DNA of 64,000 nucleotides, taken from NCBI RefSeq assembly GCF_014200755.1, contig NZ_JACHCM010000003.1, positions 434,001 to 498,000 of the forward strand, read 5' to 3'. The notes beneath the pieces are model-generated. The model worked only from the letters and a program-made list of their open reading frames with translations. It had not been told where the DNA came from and made no database searches. The position numbers and the translations under genes are program-made. How positions within the stretch are numbered: the stretch's first letter is position 1; each line of letters opens with the position of its first letter. This document shows positions 7,502-56,304 of this stretch, in pieces. The stretch is from Rhodanobacter sp. ANJX3 (lineage in GTDB: Bacteria > Pseudomonadota > Gammaproteobacteria > Xanthomonadales > Rhodanobacteraceae).

Positions 7502-8880
7502 GGCTGCTCCATGATAACCGGCGGCGGTGTTGTCGGCGCCGATACGCTGGCAATGTGTGCGTACCAGTCGATGCGGCGGGTGAGATACATCATCAGCGCT
7601 ACCATCGTCAGCAGCACCAGTGCGCCGATCAGCAGCGCGTACTGCTCTGCGGCGATCAGTGCGTACAGCATCACGTAGATCAGTCCGAGGACGGCGGCCA
7701 GCAAGGCACCCGCGCGTGCGGCGCGCAGCACGGCGGTAGCGTAGCCGCCCACGATCAGCACGACCGCGCTGGCCGCCAACGCGTAGGCCGCTGCAAAACC
7801 TATCTGCTCGGACAACGCCAGCAGCACGACATAGAACGTCGCCAGAGCAGCGCCGACCAGTAGATACTGCACCGGGTGCACTCGCAGCTTTTTCAACGTT
7901 TCGAATAGAAAGAACGCGACAAAGGTCATCGCAATGAAAAGCAGACCGTATTTGCCCGCCCGTTCATTGCGCTGATAAACATCCACTGGCTGATAAAGCT
8001 GCACGCCGAAAATGGAGGCCTGCAGTGCGCCAGTCATGTCCGCCGCACCATCGGTCCAGTGCTGACCGTAATTGCGGTTGAGATCGAGCATGTGCCAGTG
8101 TGCGCTGAAGCCGTGGGCATCTACCCGACGCTCCAACGGCAGCGCCGCACCGATAAAGCTGGGATCGCGCCACGGCGCATGCATCGTCACGTCGGTGCTG
8201 CGCGCCAGTGGAAGCAGCTGCAGCGATTGCGTACCTGCGAGCTTGAAGCTGATGTCGACCTGCAGCGGCTGATCCGTGACCTGAGGCCCCGTTGTCCCAG
8301 CCAGTGAATCCAGATCGACCGGCACGACGATGGTGGTCCATGCGCCGAGATGTTCCGCCGAAGAATCGAACCGCGCCGGCTTGCCGTTGACCAGCAGATG
8401 GGTCACCTGTTGCAGGCCGCGCAGATCGCTGATCGGTACACGCAATTCGGCCTTGCCGCCCTGCCACGGCGTGCCGACGGCCTGGCGCAGTTTCGCCAGA
8501 TCATCGGCGCGATAGCTCGCATGCATCTGCACCGTGGCAACGAACACCGGTGCGCTGTAGATGCCGTAGCTGCGCTTCTCCACCGCCATCGCCACGTCCA
8601 GCGTCGTGCTGTCGGCCAGCATGCTTTGCGTACCGGCACGCCACTGCGCTGGGCTGCCGCTCGCGACCGGCAACGCCTCATGCGTCGGCACCACCAGCAC
8701 AGGACTGCCCAGCACCTGCTCGCCGCCCCAACCCTGTGCAATTTGTGCAATCGCCTTTTCGCGCAGCTGCTGACGCTCGCTCACCAGCCCATTCACCTGC
8801 ATCAGCGGTATCGTCATCAGCAGTGCCAACAAGGCGATACCCAGAACTTTCGCTGTTACCGTTTGCATCCATCCATTCAT
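7498..8880 (-). CDS. creD: Inner membrane protein CreD
   Basis: A 460-residue membrane protein of the CreD family. One transmembrane helix (residues 9-27) is followed by a large periplasmic domain with VLGSPVLVVPTHEA near its start. A C-terminal cluster of about six helices begins YGLLFIAMTFVAFFLFETL and continues with the characteristic VHPVQYLLVGAALATFYVVL. The start is taken as the ATG at 8880, because the GTG 15 bases upstream sits in GTGGAG, which serves as the ribosome-binding site. CreD belongs to the CreBC regulon, which affects envelope integrity and beta-lactam and colicin tolerance in enterobacteria; no creBC is visible here. It overlaps tsaB by four bases. Confidence 0.92.
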   Translation of the reverse strand: MNGWMQTVTAKVLGIALLALLMTIPLMQVNGLVSERQQLREKAIAQIAQGWGGEQVLGSPVLVVPTHEALPVASGSPAQWRAGTQSMLADSTTLDVAMAVEKRSYGIYSAPVFVATVQMHASYRADDLAKLRQAVGTPWQGGKAELRVPISDLRGLQQVTHLLVNGKPARFDSSAEHLGAWTTIVVPVDLDSLAGTTGPQVTDQPLQVDISFKLAGTQSLQLLPLARSTDVTMHAPWRDPSFIGAALPLERRVDAHGFSAHWHMLDLNRNYGQHWTDGAADMTGALQASIFGVQLYQPVDVYQRNERAGKYGLLFIAMTFVAFFLFETLKKLRVHPVQYLLVGAALATFYVVLLALSEQIGFAAAYALAASAVVLIVGGYATAVLRAARAGALLAAVLGLIYVMLYALIAAEQYALLIGALVLLTMVALMMYLTRRIDWYAHIASVSAPTTPPPVIMEQP

Positions 8881-9230
8881 CGTGTCGATCTCCACGTGGG
8901 GAGCGTCGATCAGAACAGCCGGCGGAGGCGTACTTCAGGCAACGTCGGTGTTTTGCATGACGGCTGTGTGGCGCACGAAAGTCGAAAGACAAAGCATCGC
9001 GTATTCACGGCGACTCCATTGATCACCCCCATCCCTTCGACTTTGGCCCGCGGGTCCACGCTCAGGGTGAGCGGTAAAAATAAAATAAGTGCCGCAACTG
9101 CTCTGAGCTAAGGGCTTTGGCCTTGAATACTTAGCTTTCATAGCTTTTGCAGTTGATCTACCAAACCCCTATGCGGCGGTGAGGCGAGGTCGCCAGGCCC
9201 GCAAGGGGAATCGACATGGGTTTCGATTCC

Positions 9231-9262
9231 TTTTCGCCAGTACATGGACGTACTGGCGAAAA
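9231..9262. repeat. Perfect 13-base inverted repeat (hairpin element)
   Basis: TTTTCGCCAGTAC-ATGGAC-GTACTGGCGAAAA: perfect 13-base arms with a six-base centre. The A/T-rich outer ends and CATGGA-type centre resemble interspersed palindromic elements seen in many xanthomonad and pseudomonad genomes. It could also act as a bidirectional transcription barrier, since T-runs occur on both strands. Seen directly; class membership is from memory. Confidence 0.6.
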
Positions 9263-9402
9263 GCCAGACCTCGGCTCACGTACTTGGCGGGCGCAGCACG
9301 GCAAGCGCCAAGTGGGGTGGCCTTCTCTTTACTCCGGGCATCCTGCCCTTCGCCCTTCGGGCCAGCTTCGCTGTTCGCGCCGCTCCTGCGGCGCAGTGGC
9401 TA

Positions 9403-50861: not shown

Positions 50862-52178
50862 ATGAGTTCCTCGCCGACACCCTCCGGTTATCTCCGAAGT
50901 TTGCGCCCATGGGATGCTGCCCTGATCGTAGTGGGCGGCATTATCGGCGGCGGTATTTTTCTCACGCCGGGTATCGTCGCCCAGCGCACGAACTCCGGGC
51001 TGACGCTCTTGCTGCTATGGGTCGGAGCCGGCCTGCTCACGCTGATCGGCGCGCTGTGCTATGCCGAGCTCGGTGCGCGGCGGCCGCATGCCGGCGGCAG
51101 CTATGTGTATTTAAGAGAAGCGTTCGGGCCGCTGGCGGGCTTTCTGTTCGGCTGGACCATGCTGCTGGTCATCTATTCCGGCTCCACCGCTTTCGTGGCC
51201 AAGATTTTTGCCGGATACGCCAGCACGCTTTTCGGCCTTTCCTCGGCGTGGGCGATGCCGCTGACCGTCGGCGCGCTGGTGTTTGTGGCGGGACTGAACC
51301 TGTTCGGGCTCAGGCTGGGCGCGCGGATCCAAAACCTTTTCGCGCTGCTGAAACTGCTGGCAGTGGCCGTGCTGGTGGTGTGCGGACTGTTTCTTGCCGG
51401 CGCCGGGCATGCGCAGATACTGGCCGTCGATCCCGCACATCACGGCACCGGCTTCATGAGCGCGGCCCTGCCGGTATTGTTCGCGTATTCGGGCTTCACC
51501 TACCTAAATAACCTCGCGGGCGAAGTACGCGATCCGCAGCGCACGCTACCGCGCGCCCTGACGCTCGGCATGCTGCTGGTGATCGCGGCCTACGTATTGG
51601 TCAACGTGGCCTACCTGGCCGCACTGGGACATGCCGGGCTCGCGGCCAGCCAGGCGCCCGCTGCTGACGTGATGCAGATGGTTTTCGGATCGTTCGGTGC
51701 CAGACTTATTGCGTTGGGCGTGGCCATTTCCGCGCTTGGTTTCTGCAACATCACGCTGGTGGCTGGTGCCCGCGTGCTGCAGGTGATGGGCGAGGACGGC
51801 CTGTTTTTTCGGTCGGTGGCGCGGCTTCACCCGCGCTATAAAACGCCGAATATCGCGCTGCTGATCCTGATCGGCTGGTCGATCCTGCTTGGGGTCACCG
51901 GCAGCTATAGCCAACTGCTCGATTACGCCACGTTCGGCGACTGGCTCGCCTGCGCCGTGGGCGTGGCGACGCTTTTCTGGTATCGCCGTCACGACGACGC
52001 AACCATCCGCTTTCGCGTGCCGGGTTATCCGCTGCTGCCGCTGGTGTTTGTCGCGGTCATCGCCTGCGTGGTGTTTGCCACCATGCGCGACAACCCCGTC
52101 AACGCCGGTATCGGGCTGATAATCATTGCCGCCGGCGTGCCGGTGTATTTCATTTGGCGTCACCTTTTTCGGCCTTAA
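50862..52178 (+). CDS. APC-superfamily amino acid permease
   Basis: 438 residues with about twelve hydrophobic helices. The glycine-rich helix-1 motif VVGGIIGGGIFLTPG and the ARRPHAGGSYVYLREAFGP segment are typical of the APC (LeuT-fold) amino acid transporters. Also seen: LFAYSGFTYLNNLAGEVRDP, and IALGVAISALGFCNITLVAG followed by RVLQVMGEDGLFFRSVARLHP. It is likely a secondary transporter of amino acids or related metabolites; the substrate is not determinable. The last seven codons and stop are repeated just downstream. Confidence 0.9.
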   Translation: MSSSPTPSGYLRSLRPWDAALIVVGGIIGGGIFLTPGIVAQRTNSGLTLLLLWVGAGLLTLIGALCYAELGARRPHAGGSYVYLREAFGPLAGFLFGWTMLLVIYSGSTAFVAKIFAGYASTLFGLSSAWAMPLTVGALVFVAGLNLFGLRLGARIQNLFALLKLLAVAVLVVCGLFLAGAGHAQILAVDPAHHGTGFMSAALPVLFAYSGFTYLNNLAGEVRDPQRTLPRALTLGMLLVIAAYVLVNVAYLAALGHAGLAASQAPAADVMQMVFGSFGARLIALGVAISALGFCNITLVAGARVLQVMGEDGLFFRSVARLHPRYKTPNIALLILIGWSILLGVTGSYSQLLDYATFGDWLACAVGVATLFWYRRHDDATIRFRVPGYPLLPLVFVAVIACVVFATMRDNPVNAGIGLIIIAAGVPVYFIWRHLFRP

Positions 52179-52241
52179 GCCGTAACGCCTCCCACAAGTG
52201 GCGTCACCTGTTCGGCCTTAAGCCGTAATGATTGCCACAAG
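52155..52241 (+). repeat. Tandem near-duplication covering the permease 3' end
   Basis: Two adjacent copies of about 43-44 bases: 52155-52198 and 52199-52241, both reading TGGCGTCACCT, then TTCGGCCTTAAGCCGTAA, then CCACAAG. The first copy includes the permease codons WRHLFRP and the TAA; the second is a non-coding duplicate with a one-base length difference and a few substitutions. Confidence 0.8.
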
Positions 52242-52356
52242 CGGCAAAAATTTTTCGGCTAGAAGCAGGGATGTTTGCCATACGCGGCAGCGCCTGTTCA
52301 GCGGAGCACGCTGTCGAGATGCGACAATGCACTCACAGCTTTCGAGGAGATTTTGA

Positions 52357-52887
52357 ATGGCGCTTGCGCAAGCCCAGGCTCTGCCGGCCACCGAGACCAT
52401 CGTGCCCGACAAGATCCGTGACGGCATCGACCTGCAGATCAACGGCGAGCACTACCGACACACCGGCGATCCGCAAATGCCGCTGCTTTGGTATCTGCGC
52501 GACGTGCTCCGGCTGACCGGCACCAAATACGGCGGCGAACATGGAGAGAACGGCGCCGACCTGATCCTGCTCAAGGGCAAGGCGACCTCGGCCATTTCGG
52601 TGACCGTGGCCAAGGCAGCGAACACTGAAATCGTCACCATCGAGGGACTCGCCGCCAACGACGGCACCCTGCATCCCGTGCAACAAGCTTTCATCGACGA
52701 GGACGCGATCGGCTGTGGCTACTGCACCCCTGGCTGGATCATCGCCTCGGTCGATCTGCTCAAGCGCAAGAAGCAGCCCAGCGACGACGATATCGACACC
52801 CTGCCCAATGTCTGTCGCTGCGGCTGCCAGACGCGCGTGCGCCGGGCGATCAAGCGCGTGGCCGCCGGCAAGGCGGGCCAGCCATGA
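52357..52887 (+). CDS. Iron-sulfur subunit of an IorA-type molybdenum hydroxylase, lacking the ferredoxin-type cluster ligands
   Basis: A 176-residue homolog of the small subunit of isoquinoline 1-oxidoreductase-type enzymes: WYLRDVLRLTGTKYG opens the ferredoxin-like domain and EIVTIEGLA closes it. The canonical CGxGxCGxC after TKYG instead reads GEHGENGAD (residues 60-68), and the fourth ligand position (SC) reads SA (residue 79). All four N-terminal [2Fe-2S] ligands are therefore missing. The C-terminal helical cluster remains intact: GCGYCTPGWIIAS (C120, C123) and NVCRCGCQTR (C153, C155, plus C157). The ribosome-binding site is GAGGAGA. The stop overlaps the large-subunit start by four bases (ATGA). 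It has no export signal, so it probably travels with the Tat-exported partner. Confidence 0.88.
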   Translation: MALAQAQALPATETIVPDKIRDGIDLQINGEHYRHTGDPQMPLLWYLRDVLRLTGTKYGGEHGENGADLILLKGKATSAISVTVAKAANTEIVTIEGLAANDGTLHPVQQAFIDEDAIGCGYCTPGWIIASVDLLKRKKQPSDDDIDTLPNVCRCGCQTRVRRAIKRVAAGKAGQP

Positions 52888-55157
52888 GCGATGCGAACCG
52901 CGGCATCCGGCTCTCGCGCCGGCGCTTTCTGCAGGTGCTGGCCGGCACAGCCGGCGCGCTGGTCATCGGTATCCGCGCGGCCGAGGCCGCCGATACCGAC
53001 GCACCACTGCCACCGTCGCTGCTCGGCGACACCTTCTATGGTATCGGTGCGTATGTGCGCATCGATACCGACGGCAACGTGCTGATCGGCGTGCGCGATC
53101 CGGACACCGGCACCGGCGTGGCCACTTCGCTGCCGCGCATCATCGCCGATGAGCTCGACGCCGACTGGAACCGCGTCAGCGTGGTATCGCTGGGCCTGGG
53201 CGTGACCGACAACAACGGCCAGCCCAGCTGGATTTACGGCCGTCAGCTCGGCGGTACCGGCGGCTCCATTTCGGCCGCGTGGGCCGACCTGCGTCAGGCC
53301 GGTGCCGTGGCGCGCTGGCTCCTATTGCAGGCGGCCGCGCGTCGTCTTGGCGTGCCGGCCGACCGACTGCGCTGCGAATCGGGCACGGTGATCGCACTGG
53401 ACGGCCGCCGCTTCACCTACGGCAGCCTGGTCGAGGACGCCAGCAAGATCGACATGCCCACCAGCGTGCCGCCGCTGAAAACCGCCGAGCGCTATCAGCT
53501 GATTGGCAACCCCGCGGGCGACGTCGATGCGCGCGAAATCGTCACCGGCCAGACGCGCTTTGCGATCGATCAGCAGTACGGCGACACGCTCACCGCCGTC
53601 GTGGTGCACTGCCCGTGGCCGGACGGCACGCTGGACGGCATCGACTTCACCGACACGCTGGCCGTCAAAGGCGTGCGCAAGGTGCTGCAGCTCAGCCCCG
53701 AAGTCGGCCAGCAGGCCGGTACCACGCTCAGCGCCACCGCCGTGGTAGTGCTCGCCGAAGACACCTGGTCCGCGCTCAAGGGCCGCCAGAAGCTCAAGCT
53801 GAAATGGAAGGCGGGCGCGAGCAACAGCGAAAGCAGCGACGCGCTGGAGCAGCAGGCTAACGCCCTGCTCGCGGGCAAGACTGACCCGACCACTCGCGTG
53901 CGCAACGATGGCGACTATGACGCGGCCAGCAAAAAGGCCGCGCGCCGACTCGAAGCCACCTATTTCCAGCCGTGGCTGGCACACGCCACCGCCGAGCCGA
54001 TGAACTGCCTGGTTCGCGTGGAAAAGAACAAGGCGACCCTGGTCGTACCGACGCAGGCGCCGCAGAAAGCCTGGGCCGTCGTACACCGGATTACCGGCCT
54101 TTCGCCGGATCAGATCGAAATCGGCGTGCCGCGGGTCGGCGGCGGCTACGGTCGGCGGCTCGATCACGATTACCTGGCCGAGGCGGTGATGCTGGCCAGC
54201 AACAAGGACATCGACACCTCGGTACGCCTGATCTGGACGCACGATCAGGACCTCGCGCACGACTACTACCGCTCCGGCAGCGTGCACCAGCTCAGCGTGA
54301 TCATCGATCGCAAGCGCCAGATCACCGGCTGGTATCAGCGCATGGTCAGCGCCTCGGCCCTGGTCAACCGCGGCGTGCCGGACAGCCGCCTGTGGACCTC
54401 CGAAGTCGATGTCGACCAGCTGCCCGCCGCGCTGGTACCCAACTACCGCAGCGACTGGTACGCGCAGACCTCGGCCATACCGCGAGGCCCGGCACGCAGC
54501 ATGCCGCACCTCAGCAACGCCTTCGCGGTGGAGAGCTTCATCGACGAAATCGCGCACAGCATGAAAGAGGATCCGCTCGACACGCACCTGCGCCTGCTTG
54601 GCGACGCGCGCGAACTGCCACTGAGCGGTGGCGGCACGTTCGATACCGGCCGGTTGATCAACGTGCTGAAGCTGGTGGCCGACCGCATCGAATGGAAAAA
54701 CTGGCTGCACAGCGTCAACGGCCTGGGGATCGCCTGCTGGCACTTCAACGGTGCTTACGTGGCGCATGCGGTCGAGGTGGCTACCAAGGATCAAAAGCTC
54801 ATCGTCCAGCGCGTAGTCTGCGCCGTGGACGTTGGGCGTATCATCAATCCGATGGGCCTGGAAGGCCAGGTCGCCGGCGCCACGTTGGACGCACTGTCTA
54901 CCGCACTGAATCTGTCGATCACCTTCAAGGATGGCCAGATCCAGCAGCACAGCGCTAAGGATTACCCCCTGGCTAGCATGGCGCAGCTGCCCGATGCGGT
55001 GGAAGTGATCACCGTACCCGGCGATCGCGACCCGGCCGGCGCCAGCTTTCTGGCCATGCCGACGGCCGCGCCGGCGCTCGCCAATGCAGTGTTCCGCGCC
55101 ACCGCCGTGCGTATCAGGCGGCTTCCACTGACCCGGGAGCTGTCGCGGTTATCGTGA
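52884..55157 (+). CDS. Molybdopterin-binding subunit of an IorB-type hydroxylase, catalytic Glu apparently replaced
   Basis: 757 residues, xanthine-dehydrogenase family, IorB group. A twin-arginine signal SRRRFLQVLAGTAGALVIG at the start predicts periplasmic export in folded form. Conserved elements are FYGIGAYVRIDTDGNVLIG, YFQPWLAHATAEPMNCLV, RVGGGYGRRLDHDYLAEAV, SNAFAVESFIDEIAH and VCAVDVGRIINPMGLEGQVA. Near the C-terminus the usual GVGEPGxPPxAPA motif, whose Glu is the catalytic base, reads ASFLAMPTAAPA, with Phe722 at the Glu position. Cofactor-binding parts are kept, so the protein may still hold the Mo cofactor but with altered or no hydroxylase chemistry. It is translationally coupled to the small subunit. 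A terminator follows 22 bases after the stop. Confidence 0.9.
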   Translation: MSDANRGIRLSRRRFLQVLAGTAGALVIGIRAAEAADTDAPLPPSLLGDTFYGIGAYVRIDTDGNVLIGVRDPDTGTGVATSLPRIIADELDADWNRVSVVSLGLGVTDNNGQPSWIYGRQLGGTGGSISAAWADLRQAGAVARWLLLQAAARRLGVPADRLRCESGTVIALDGRRFTYGSLVEDASKIDMPTSVPPLKTAERYQLIGNPAGDVDAREIVTGQTRFAIDQQYGDTLTAVVVHCPWPDGTLDGIDFTDTLAVKGVRKVLQLSPEVGQQAGTTLSATAVVVLAEDTWSALKGRQKLKLKWKAGASNSESSDALEQQANALLAGKTDPTTRVRNDGDYDAASKKAARRLEATYFQPWLAHATAEPMNCLVRVEKNKATLVVPTQAPQKAWAVVHRITGLSPDQIEIGVPRVGGGYGRRLDHDYLAEAVMLASNKDIDTSVRLIWTHDQDLAHDYYRSGSVHQLSVIIDRKRQITGWYQRMVSASALVNRGVPDSRLWTSEVDVDQLPAALVPNYRSDWYAQTSAIPRGPARSMPHLSNAFAVESFIDEIAHSMKEDPLDTHLRLLGDARELPLSGGGTFDTGRLINVLKLVADRIEWKNWLHSVNGLGIACWHFNGAYVAHAVEVATKDQKLIVQRVVCAVDVGRIINPMGLEGQVAGATLDALSTALNLSITFKDGQIQQHSAKDYPLASMAQLPDAVEVITVPGDRDPAGASFLAMPTAAPALANAVFRATAVRIRRLPLTRELSRLS

Positions 55158-55179
55158 ATTTTATATTCCTTTGGACCTG

Positions 55180-55211
55180 AATAAATGGCCGTTTTTACGG
55201 CCATTTATTTT
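55180..55211. terminator. Bidirectional terminator between iorB-like and GNAT genes
   Basis: Perfect 13-base stem AATAAATGGCCGT / ACGGCCATTTATT with a TTTT loop and a T-run after it. It lies between convergent genes. Confidence 0.9.
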
Positions 55212-55793: not shown

Positions 55794-56126
55794 CTAGTGA
55801 GCGCTGACCTTCGAGAGCACATTGAGTACCGATATGCCGCTCACGATAAGTCCCATGCCGACAAAGGCCCATAGATCGAGCTTTTGTCCGTGAAAAATCC
55901 ACGCAATGGCCGCTACAAGGACAATGCCGAGTCCAGCCCATACAGCGTAGGCAATACCGACCGGGATAACCGCAAGCGCGCGAGAGAGGAAATAGAAAGC
56001 GATGCTGTAACCCACAAGCACCACCACCGATGGAACAGGTCTGGTGAAGCCGTCAGCGGATTTAAGAGCAGACGTGGCGACAACCTCGCCGATAATTGCA
56101 ACAGCAAGAAACAGCCAGTTTTTCAT
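55794..56126 (-). CDS. Small multidrug resistance (SMR) exporter, EmrE-type
   Basis: A 110-residue four-helix membrane protein. The essential membrane Glu14 is present in [19 protein letters not shown]. The conserved [11 protein letters not shown] motif in helix 3 and [20 protein letters not shown] around helix 4 are also typical. The strong GGAGGG ribosome-binding site, eight bases before the ATG at 56126, decides the start; the open frame to 56270 is not coding. It works as a dual-topology dimer that exports cationic compounds or guanidinium with proton exchange. Codon use is less GC-rich than neighbours, hinting at acquisition. Confidence 0.93.
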
Positions 56127-56304
56127 CGTTTCAGCCCTCCAGCATGGAGAGGAAGTTTGAGAGTTCCTGCCGACAAACGACAGTCTTGCAGCGCAACCAA
56201 TTGTCTGAGCATCGGGAAGTGAGCGTCGCGCACGTCGGCTACTCGGCAGATGAGCGCCGTGGTGACGCATTTGCCAGCGGCCCGTTGGTTCGGTCAGGTA
56301 AAGC

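Follow-up and report, generated by a model that had tools for sequence, protein, structure and literature searches.

A xanthine oxidase-family gene pair of Rhodanobacter and related genera that lacks the catalytic Glu and the distal cluster ligands and probably works without molybdenum

Results

The gene pair and its distribution

The window studied here is a stretch of 64,000 nucleotides from Rhodanobacter sp. ANJX3 (contig NZ_JACHCM010000003.1, positions 434,001 to 498,000), and its subject is a gene pair encoding the small and large subunits of a protein of the xanthine oxidase (XO) family. An earlier reading made from the letters of the window (the sequence-only reading) had described a two-subunit molybdenum hydroxylase with key residues replaced in both subunits. 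The features on which the present analysis turns are the following, all on the plus strand.

52357-52887, plus: small subunit, 176 amino acids; a Fer2-like half without ligands, then a [2Fe-2S] Fer2_2 half; intact open reading frame
52534-52596, plus: distal-cluster loop of the small subunit, residues 60-80; the ligand positions read G60, N65, D68 and I80
52714-52821, plus: proximal [2Fe-2S] ligands C120, C123, C153 and C155 (C-x2-C ... C-x-C), from the sequence
52884-55157, plus: large subunit, 757 amino acids; MoCoBD_1/MoCoBD_2 fold without the catalytic Glu; intact open reading frame
52908-52994, plus: twin-arginine translocation (Tat) signal region of the large subunit, RRRFLQ; R12 and R13 are invariant in a 70-sequence alignment
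55038-55061, plus: GASFLAMP replacing the GxGEPG motif, with the Phe722 codon at 55047-55049; from the alignment to 8gy3_C

At E <= 1e-150, the large subunit has a relative in 218 of the 233 genomes of the window's family, and a close group at about 61% identity or higher comprises 118 of the 233 genomes, from 14 genera. Within those 14 genera the pair is present in 118 of 120 genomes, the two assemblies that miss it being 89% and 86% complete. Motifs were read directly in 79 of the 118 pairs, and the other 39 were assigned through identity and genus. We also named 71 near loci, among them 36 from Rhodanobacter, 16 from Dyella, 5 from Frateuria and 1 from Fulvimonas, whose species largely overlap with the 118-genome family set.

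The altered small subunit

The small subunit matches Pfam Fer2_2 at residues 94-166 (E 4.5e-23), with no second Pfam family at threshold. Its AlphaFold2 (AF2) model has a mean predicted local distance difference test score (pLDDT) of 89.6, and the closest folds in the PDB are XO-type small subunits. Where the family carries CGxGxCGxC, the distal loop of the window's protein reads GGEHGENGAD. Intact relatives have Cys at the distal ligand columns in at least 95% of cases, and residues 55-90 hold no Cys at all in the 79 group members read. The sequence-only reading was therefore right that all four distal ligands are gone, but not that the fourth had become Ala, as the alignment column is Ile80 and not Ala79. 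The C-terminal cluster (C120, C123, C153, C155) is kept as it had described, and all four proximal Cys are also retained in 79/79 of the group members. Among the 71 near loci, the proximal set is complete in 70, the remaining locus covering the first two Cys only; the distal Cys are gone in 70 as well, and one locus (L135) is the exception that retains them.

Comparable loss of the distal Cys was found in none of 42 further small subunits (stronger matches only), which comprised 29 class-level loci, 9 far loci and 4 loci from other families of the order. The class-level search covered 369 genomes, 35 of them with a match, and one of its 29 loci (L248) belongs to the window's own family. One relative has the opposite lesion: in locus L051 (genome G048), the small subunit (8525-9286, minus strand) has its proximal ligands replaced (PTGYAQP, LCRDG), the Glu motif is lost too, and the host carries moaA.

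The altered large subunit

The large subunit matches Pfam MoCoBD_1 and MoCoBD_2, and its best solved relative is 8gy3_C (sequence E 7.9e-53, profile E 1.2e-99, template modelling (TM) score of the fold 0.84). The mean pLDDT of its AF2 model is 88.5, with residues 419-421 of the GGG loop below 50. Both subunits retain the fold of the family. Alignment to 8gy3_C places Phe722 at the catalytic Glu column (PTGLGEPGV in 8gy3_C versus PAGASFLAM here), which bears out the placement made in the sequence-only reading. The motif is GASF in 76 of the 77 group members in which the stretch is visible and GASL, with Leu, in the remaining one; GAYEMGLP stands at this position once among the 71 near loci. A nearby shifted residue had been considered as a source of the Glu, and alignment of the column had been proposed. 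As residues 717-736 contain neither Glu nor Asp in 77/77 relatives with a visible stretch, no shifted Glu supplies the catalytic residue, and this candidate is ruled out. The Tat signal is intact, as had been claimed, and 77 of the 79 group members read carry the motif RRxF[LMI].

Both changes are thus a state of a clade. Since 79/79 pairs read share the loss of the distal Cys, the possibility of a lone degenerate copy among intact close homologs is excluded. Chance or a frameshift artefact is ruled out by the intact frames and by a joint replacement that is fixed throughout the clade.

Order of the losses

Two trees were built, one of the large subunit (132 rows, motif columns removed, FastTree) and one of both subunits (70 rows, motif and distal loop removed, IQ-TREE quick search). 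On both, the distal-Cys state changes once and the group is monophyletic with a local support of 100; the Glu state changes 6 times on the 132-row tree and 3 times on the 70-row tree. The nearest relatives (genera g11, g12 and g13; g, G and L are our handles for genera, genomes and loci) keep the four distal Cys where these were read, and the place of the Glu is taken by Val, Ile, Thr or Gly. Farther out, g24 carries GAFD or GAFA, the state varies within g26, g25, g5 and g9, and the Glu is kept in the rows read of g2, g15 and g17. One locus of the nearest-relative genera, L181 (G243), has a Glu within the otherwise changed motif GASELAMP, either kept or regained.

Because the nearest relatives are Glu-less and yet possess the distal Cys, these trees indicate that the Glu was lost first, probably more than once, and that the distal ligands were lost later and once. 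The replacement is joint, as the sequence-only reading had it, in the sense that both changes are fixed in the clade; it is not joint in its timing.

An amino acid permease gene lies upstream of the pair in 35 of 43 compared loci, motif-intact relatives among them. As intact and changed relatives share this permease locus, the resident copy was probably changed in place. An origin as a recent duplicate freed from constraint is ruled out, because intact relatives occupy the identical permease-linked locus.

Molybdopterin genes in the hosts

No match to moaA was found in 38 of the 118 carriers, and MoaC was without a match in the same 38 (lists compared by eye); molybdopterin genes were found in the window's own genome and the other 80 carriers. 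Listed completeness is 90% or more for 33 of the 38 genomes, seven of the 38 are single-contig, and the moaA search recovered the gene in 13 of 14 control genomes. In a set of 120 genomes, the moaA, MoaE and MoeA results of the family genomes agree except in G011 (89% complete, no MoaE match), and 26 of the 57 group carriers tabulated lack all three. In 25 of these 26, no other XO-type small subunit was found at E <= 1e-10, the exception being G037, which is 86% complete. A PF00384 protein occurs in all 120 genomes, and exactly one in each of the 26 carriers without moaA, a count that we take to be expected from NuoG alone.

Inside the group, moaA status changes 15 times on the 70-row tree (direction not inferred), and the pair is present either way; regain of moaA within the group is possible. 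In family f1, the moaA matches group around two scores, about 1e-110 and about 1e-95, which suggests that molybdopterin gene clusters of two types exist there, perhaps through loss and regain. The pocket motifs are equally conserved without and with moaA (GASF in 37/37 versus 39/40, GGGYG in 37/38 versus 41/41).

Outside the group, 54 further pairs were scored: 24 have the Glu in hosts with the cofactor genes, 17 lack it in such hosts, 12 lack it in hosts without the genes and one (G279, an assembly 87% complete) has it in a host without them. In this count, two pairs are second copies of one genome each, two moaA-less but MoaC-positive genomes were scored as pathway-positive, and some of the 12 assemblies lacking both are incomplete. 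Because 17 pairs have lost the Glu in cofactor-making hosts, loss of the Glu does not require loss of the cofactor. An independent-pairs test of moaA against the Glu always ran in one direction (about 3 to 0), with too few pairs for significance. Genus g25 (L046, L184-L191, L194) offers a second example of a pair retained in the absence of molybdopterin genes: its motif is GAGE in 4/4 hosts with moaA and GAED in 6/6 without (two of them 76-77% complete), and all distal Cys are retained where read.

The insertion chaperone XdhC

According to the accessible text of PMC2997495, Rhodobacter xanthine dehydrogenase made without XdhC has no molybdopterin inserted and still holds its iron-sulfur (Fe-S) clusters and flavin adenine dinucleotide. 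Among cofactor-making carriers of the group, an XdhC_C protein was found in 15/15 of those with another XO-type enzyme versus 0/16 of those with only this pair (Fisher p 3e-9, kinship uncorrected). It was found in 0/26 of the carriers without molybdopterin genes in the 120-genome set, and it was also unmatched in G056, G067 and G069, which lie outside the group and have a Glu-less pair as their sole XO-type protein. In many genomes the XdhC_C search scored the best 32 candidates of a longer list, and it gave matches in 5 of 14 control genomes.

Selection and fixed replacements

Ratios of nonsynonymous to synonymous substitution (dN/dS) were obtained by the Nei-Gojobori method, with some genomes entering two pairs. 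Among the 11 group pairs without moaA, the large subunit has values of 0.07-0.26 in 10 and 0.385 in the other, and the small subunit has values between 0 and 0.52. Three overlapping pairs from the window's genus show a contrast within the small subunit, with 0.63-1.10 for its ferredoxin (Fd)-like half versus 0.07-0.19 for the Fer2_2 half; in most other pairs both halves are constrained. The distal loop varies among group members, with indels. Both subunits are mostly under purifying selection. This and the retention of the pair in 118 of 120 genomes uphold the claim that it is not simply decaying, and a cross-species clade with shared replacements and mostly purifying selection indicates that the state is selected, as had been proposed.

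Columns of the large subunit conserved at 97% or above number 256 of 757 in the 79 group members versus 164 in 24 intact relatives, a contrast that is no more than suggestive given the lower divergence of the group. Fixed replacements include F422Y, H619W, G624A, G666A, G721S and E722F of the large subunit, together with Q119G, Q124T and Q127W of the small one. With larger residues at some positions (G666A, G721S, H619W, Q127W) and smaller ones at others (P104G, S126G, Q119G), plugging of the pocket is just an idea.

Control signals and neighbouring genes

The remaining features at the locus are listed here.

52344-52349, plus: ribosome-binding site GAGGAG, seven bases 5' of the small-subunit ATG, read from the sequence
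55179-55210, plus: terminator-like hairpin and T run 3' of the pair; -20.1 kcal/mol, fold z -5.45
50862-52178, plus: APC-type amino acid permease, the conserved upstream neighbour; AA_permease_2, E 1.9e-56
52232-52247: terminator-like hairpin with T run between permease and pair
55794-56270, minus: small multidrug resistance type transporter, PF00893
56305-58386 and 58449-59369, minus: proline-rich proteins, one each, with a membrane-like stretch at the N-terminus and no Pfam family

The frames of the two subunits share an ATGA overlap. With the GAGGAG site and the hairpin, the signals reported by the sequence-only reading (intact frames, ATGA coupling, a good ribosome-binding site and a 3' terminator) are all confirmed. 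The hairpin at 55179-55210 is absent among the matches of a simple terminator scan, and a search for a sigma-70-like promoter found none. Given the hairpin at 52232-52247, permease and pair may have separate transcripts.

Nine neighbour proteins in the window were scanned (seven with a Pfam family, two without), and no cytochrome or flavin partner was found among them. The neighbours of the locus (permease, pro-kumamolisin protease, fumarase, EF-G-like, PhzF-like and outer-membrane proteins) point to no pathway. The proline-rich proteins lie near the subunit pair in 27 of 43 compared loci, and their N-terminal stretch, to our eye, resembles TonB. The genome of the window also has two further XO-type enzymes, both with normal motifs.

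Discussion

From the sequence evidence, we consider it probable that the pair is an in-place descendant of a molybdenum hydroxylase of the IorAB/aldehyde dehydrogenase type, one that would work without molybdenum and is probably a binding or structural protein. The two parts of this proposal differ in strength. Independence of molybdenum appears very likely, and toward a non-catalytic role we lean only slightly. The heterodimer would fold in the cytoplasm around a single [2Fe-2S] cluster, which may now be mainly structural, and Tat would export the complex with the small subunit carried along. In the periplasm, the former cofactor and substrate pocket, now remodelled, might serve in binding or as a scaffold. 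Electron transfer is a less likely use, because the acceptor cluster is gone and no partner redox gene was seen beside the pair. The linked amino acid permease is a weak hint to the ligand or partner. Somewhat short of an even chance, we tentatively suggest that this molybdenum-free form of the XO family has turned into a conserved core protein of the periplasm in part of one bacterial family, with a single Fe-S cluster and a pocket rebuilt for a new ligand or cofactor. Of the three options that the sequence-only reading had left (different chemistry, another electron exit, a non-enzymatic periplasmic role), the molybdenum-free one is favoured by the data, and those that keep molybdenum are hard to square with the 38 of 118 carriers in which neither moaA nor MoaC had a match.

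Several points weigh against this proposal. The Fe-S cluster is read from four cysteines, and the role as a binder from features that are missing. As the best 32 candidates per genome were scored, a weak XdhC could be missed. The pair G051/G066 has dN/dS values of 0.385 (large subunit) and 0.518 (small subunit), hinting at relaxed selection. Finally, Q391, R538 and the GGG loop, which we take from xanthine oxidase to be positions at the cofactor in the relatives, are kept in nearly all members, so that binding of the cofactor in cofactor-making hosts is possible.

It is also conceivable, and in our judgement rather unlikely, that the scaffold is still an enzyme with a different cofactor or metal-free chemistry. 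In that case the rebuilt pocket (F722, S721, Y422, W619, A666 and W127 of the small subunit) would have a new organic ligand, either a cofactor or a substrate, and electrons would go from the single [2Fe-2S] cluster directly to an outside acceptor. Such an enzyme would agree with a large subunit that has been refixed and is not drifting, as the coherent swaps and the larger number of conserved columns suggest within a less divergent group, and with pocket motifs that are unchanged in hosts without moaA. However, neither a cytochrome nor a flavin partner occurs among the nine neighbours scanned (two without a Pfam family), no alternative cofactor motif was recognised, and the exit cluster has gone.

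We regard a molybdenum enzyme of unusual chemistry, with Phe in place of Glu and electrons leaving from the proximal cluster, which was the option named first in the sequence-only reading, as very unlikely. Its case is that moaA is present in the hosts of 41 of the 79 pairs read and that Q391, R538 and the GGG loop are kept, but the pair is equally conserved in the 38 carriers that have no moaA or MoaC match, and XdhC_C was not found in 16/16 cofactor-making hosts with only this XO-type protein. Still less probable is a supply of molybdopterin to the moa-less hosts, either taken from neighbours or made by an unrecognised route, so that the pair is loaded everywhere. Import is compatible with the sequence data, and a 2018 survey, in its accessible text, lists cofactor genes not yet known as one possibility (PMC6147048); against this, among the 26 hosts of this kind in the 120-genome set, a further XO-type small subunit was found in only one, none has an XdhC_C match and each has just one PF00384 protein. 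Slow decay as a pseudogene, which would suit the relaxed Fd-like half in the three overlapping pairs and the variable distal loop with its indels, is the least probable reading of all, given that no internal stop occurs among the large-subunit matches listed, that only two assemblies of limited completeness in the 14 genera miss the pair, and that the large-subunit dN/dS stays at or below 0.26 in all but one of the 11 moaA-less group pairs.

A literature search, conducted mostly without subscription papers, returned no account of this pair and no earlier molybdenum-free case in the XO family among the matches listed. To name the pair a molybdenum enzyme by family alone would be misleading in about a hundred genomes. 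As one genus holds hosts with and without the cofactor genes, molybdenum independence is directly testable, and the series of intact relatives and ordered losses is a natural record of a redox enzyme turning into something else.

Comparison with known systems

The pair resembles the IorAB type of the XO family and the membrane-bound aldehyde dehydrogenase of Gluconobacter (8gy3) in its small/large layout, its domain order and the Tat signal on the large subunit; IorAB is isoquinoline 1-oxidoreductase, with 8gy3 the closest known system. It differs from this type by lacking the catalytic Glu and the distal ligands, and by occurring in 38 of 118 hosts without a moaA or MoaC match. A cytochrome c subunit encoded next to the other two is a feature of the three-subunit aldehyde dehydrogenase of the 8gy3 type, whereas none was seen among the nine neighbours in the window (two without a Pfam family).

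NuoG of respiratory complex I is a molybdoenzyme-derived protein kept without molybdenum as part of another machine, and in this respect the pair is like it. However, NuoG belongs to the dimethyl sulfoxide reductase (DMSOR) family and is a subunit of a large complex, whereas the pair belongs to the XO family and is predicted to be a Tat-exported heterodimer. In the accessible text on MoeA/Glp of Actinobacteria (PMC11733289), a protein of molybdenum cofactor metabolism has likewise been recruited for an unrelated function; that protein is a cofactor biosynthesis enzyme, whereas the pair is a molybdoenzyme scaffold.

The pair is also like the orphan molybdoproteins of the 2018 survey, being a molybdoprotein homologue in hosts without the complete pathway. 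As far as its accessible text goes, the survey described several hundred organisms with a partial molybdenum trait, especially orphan molybdoproteins, most of which belong to the DMSOR and XO families and whose hosts do not have the whole molybdopterin pathway (PMC6147048). In the same text, no sequence-level feature could be identified, molybdenum-independent forms were named as one possibility, and pseudogenes or unsequenced genes could not be excluded. Unlike the orphans so described, the pair has a residue signature that is fixed, some hosts with single-contig genomes, and both trees and selection tests behind it, and it supplies a sequence signature for orphan molybdoproteins that the survey had left uncharacterised. 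Its fixed signature, its order of losses and its intact relatives at the same locus make the pair a clear case among such proteins.

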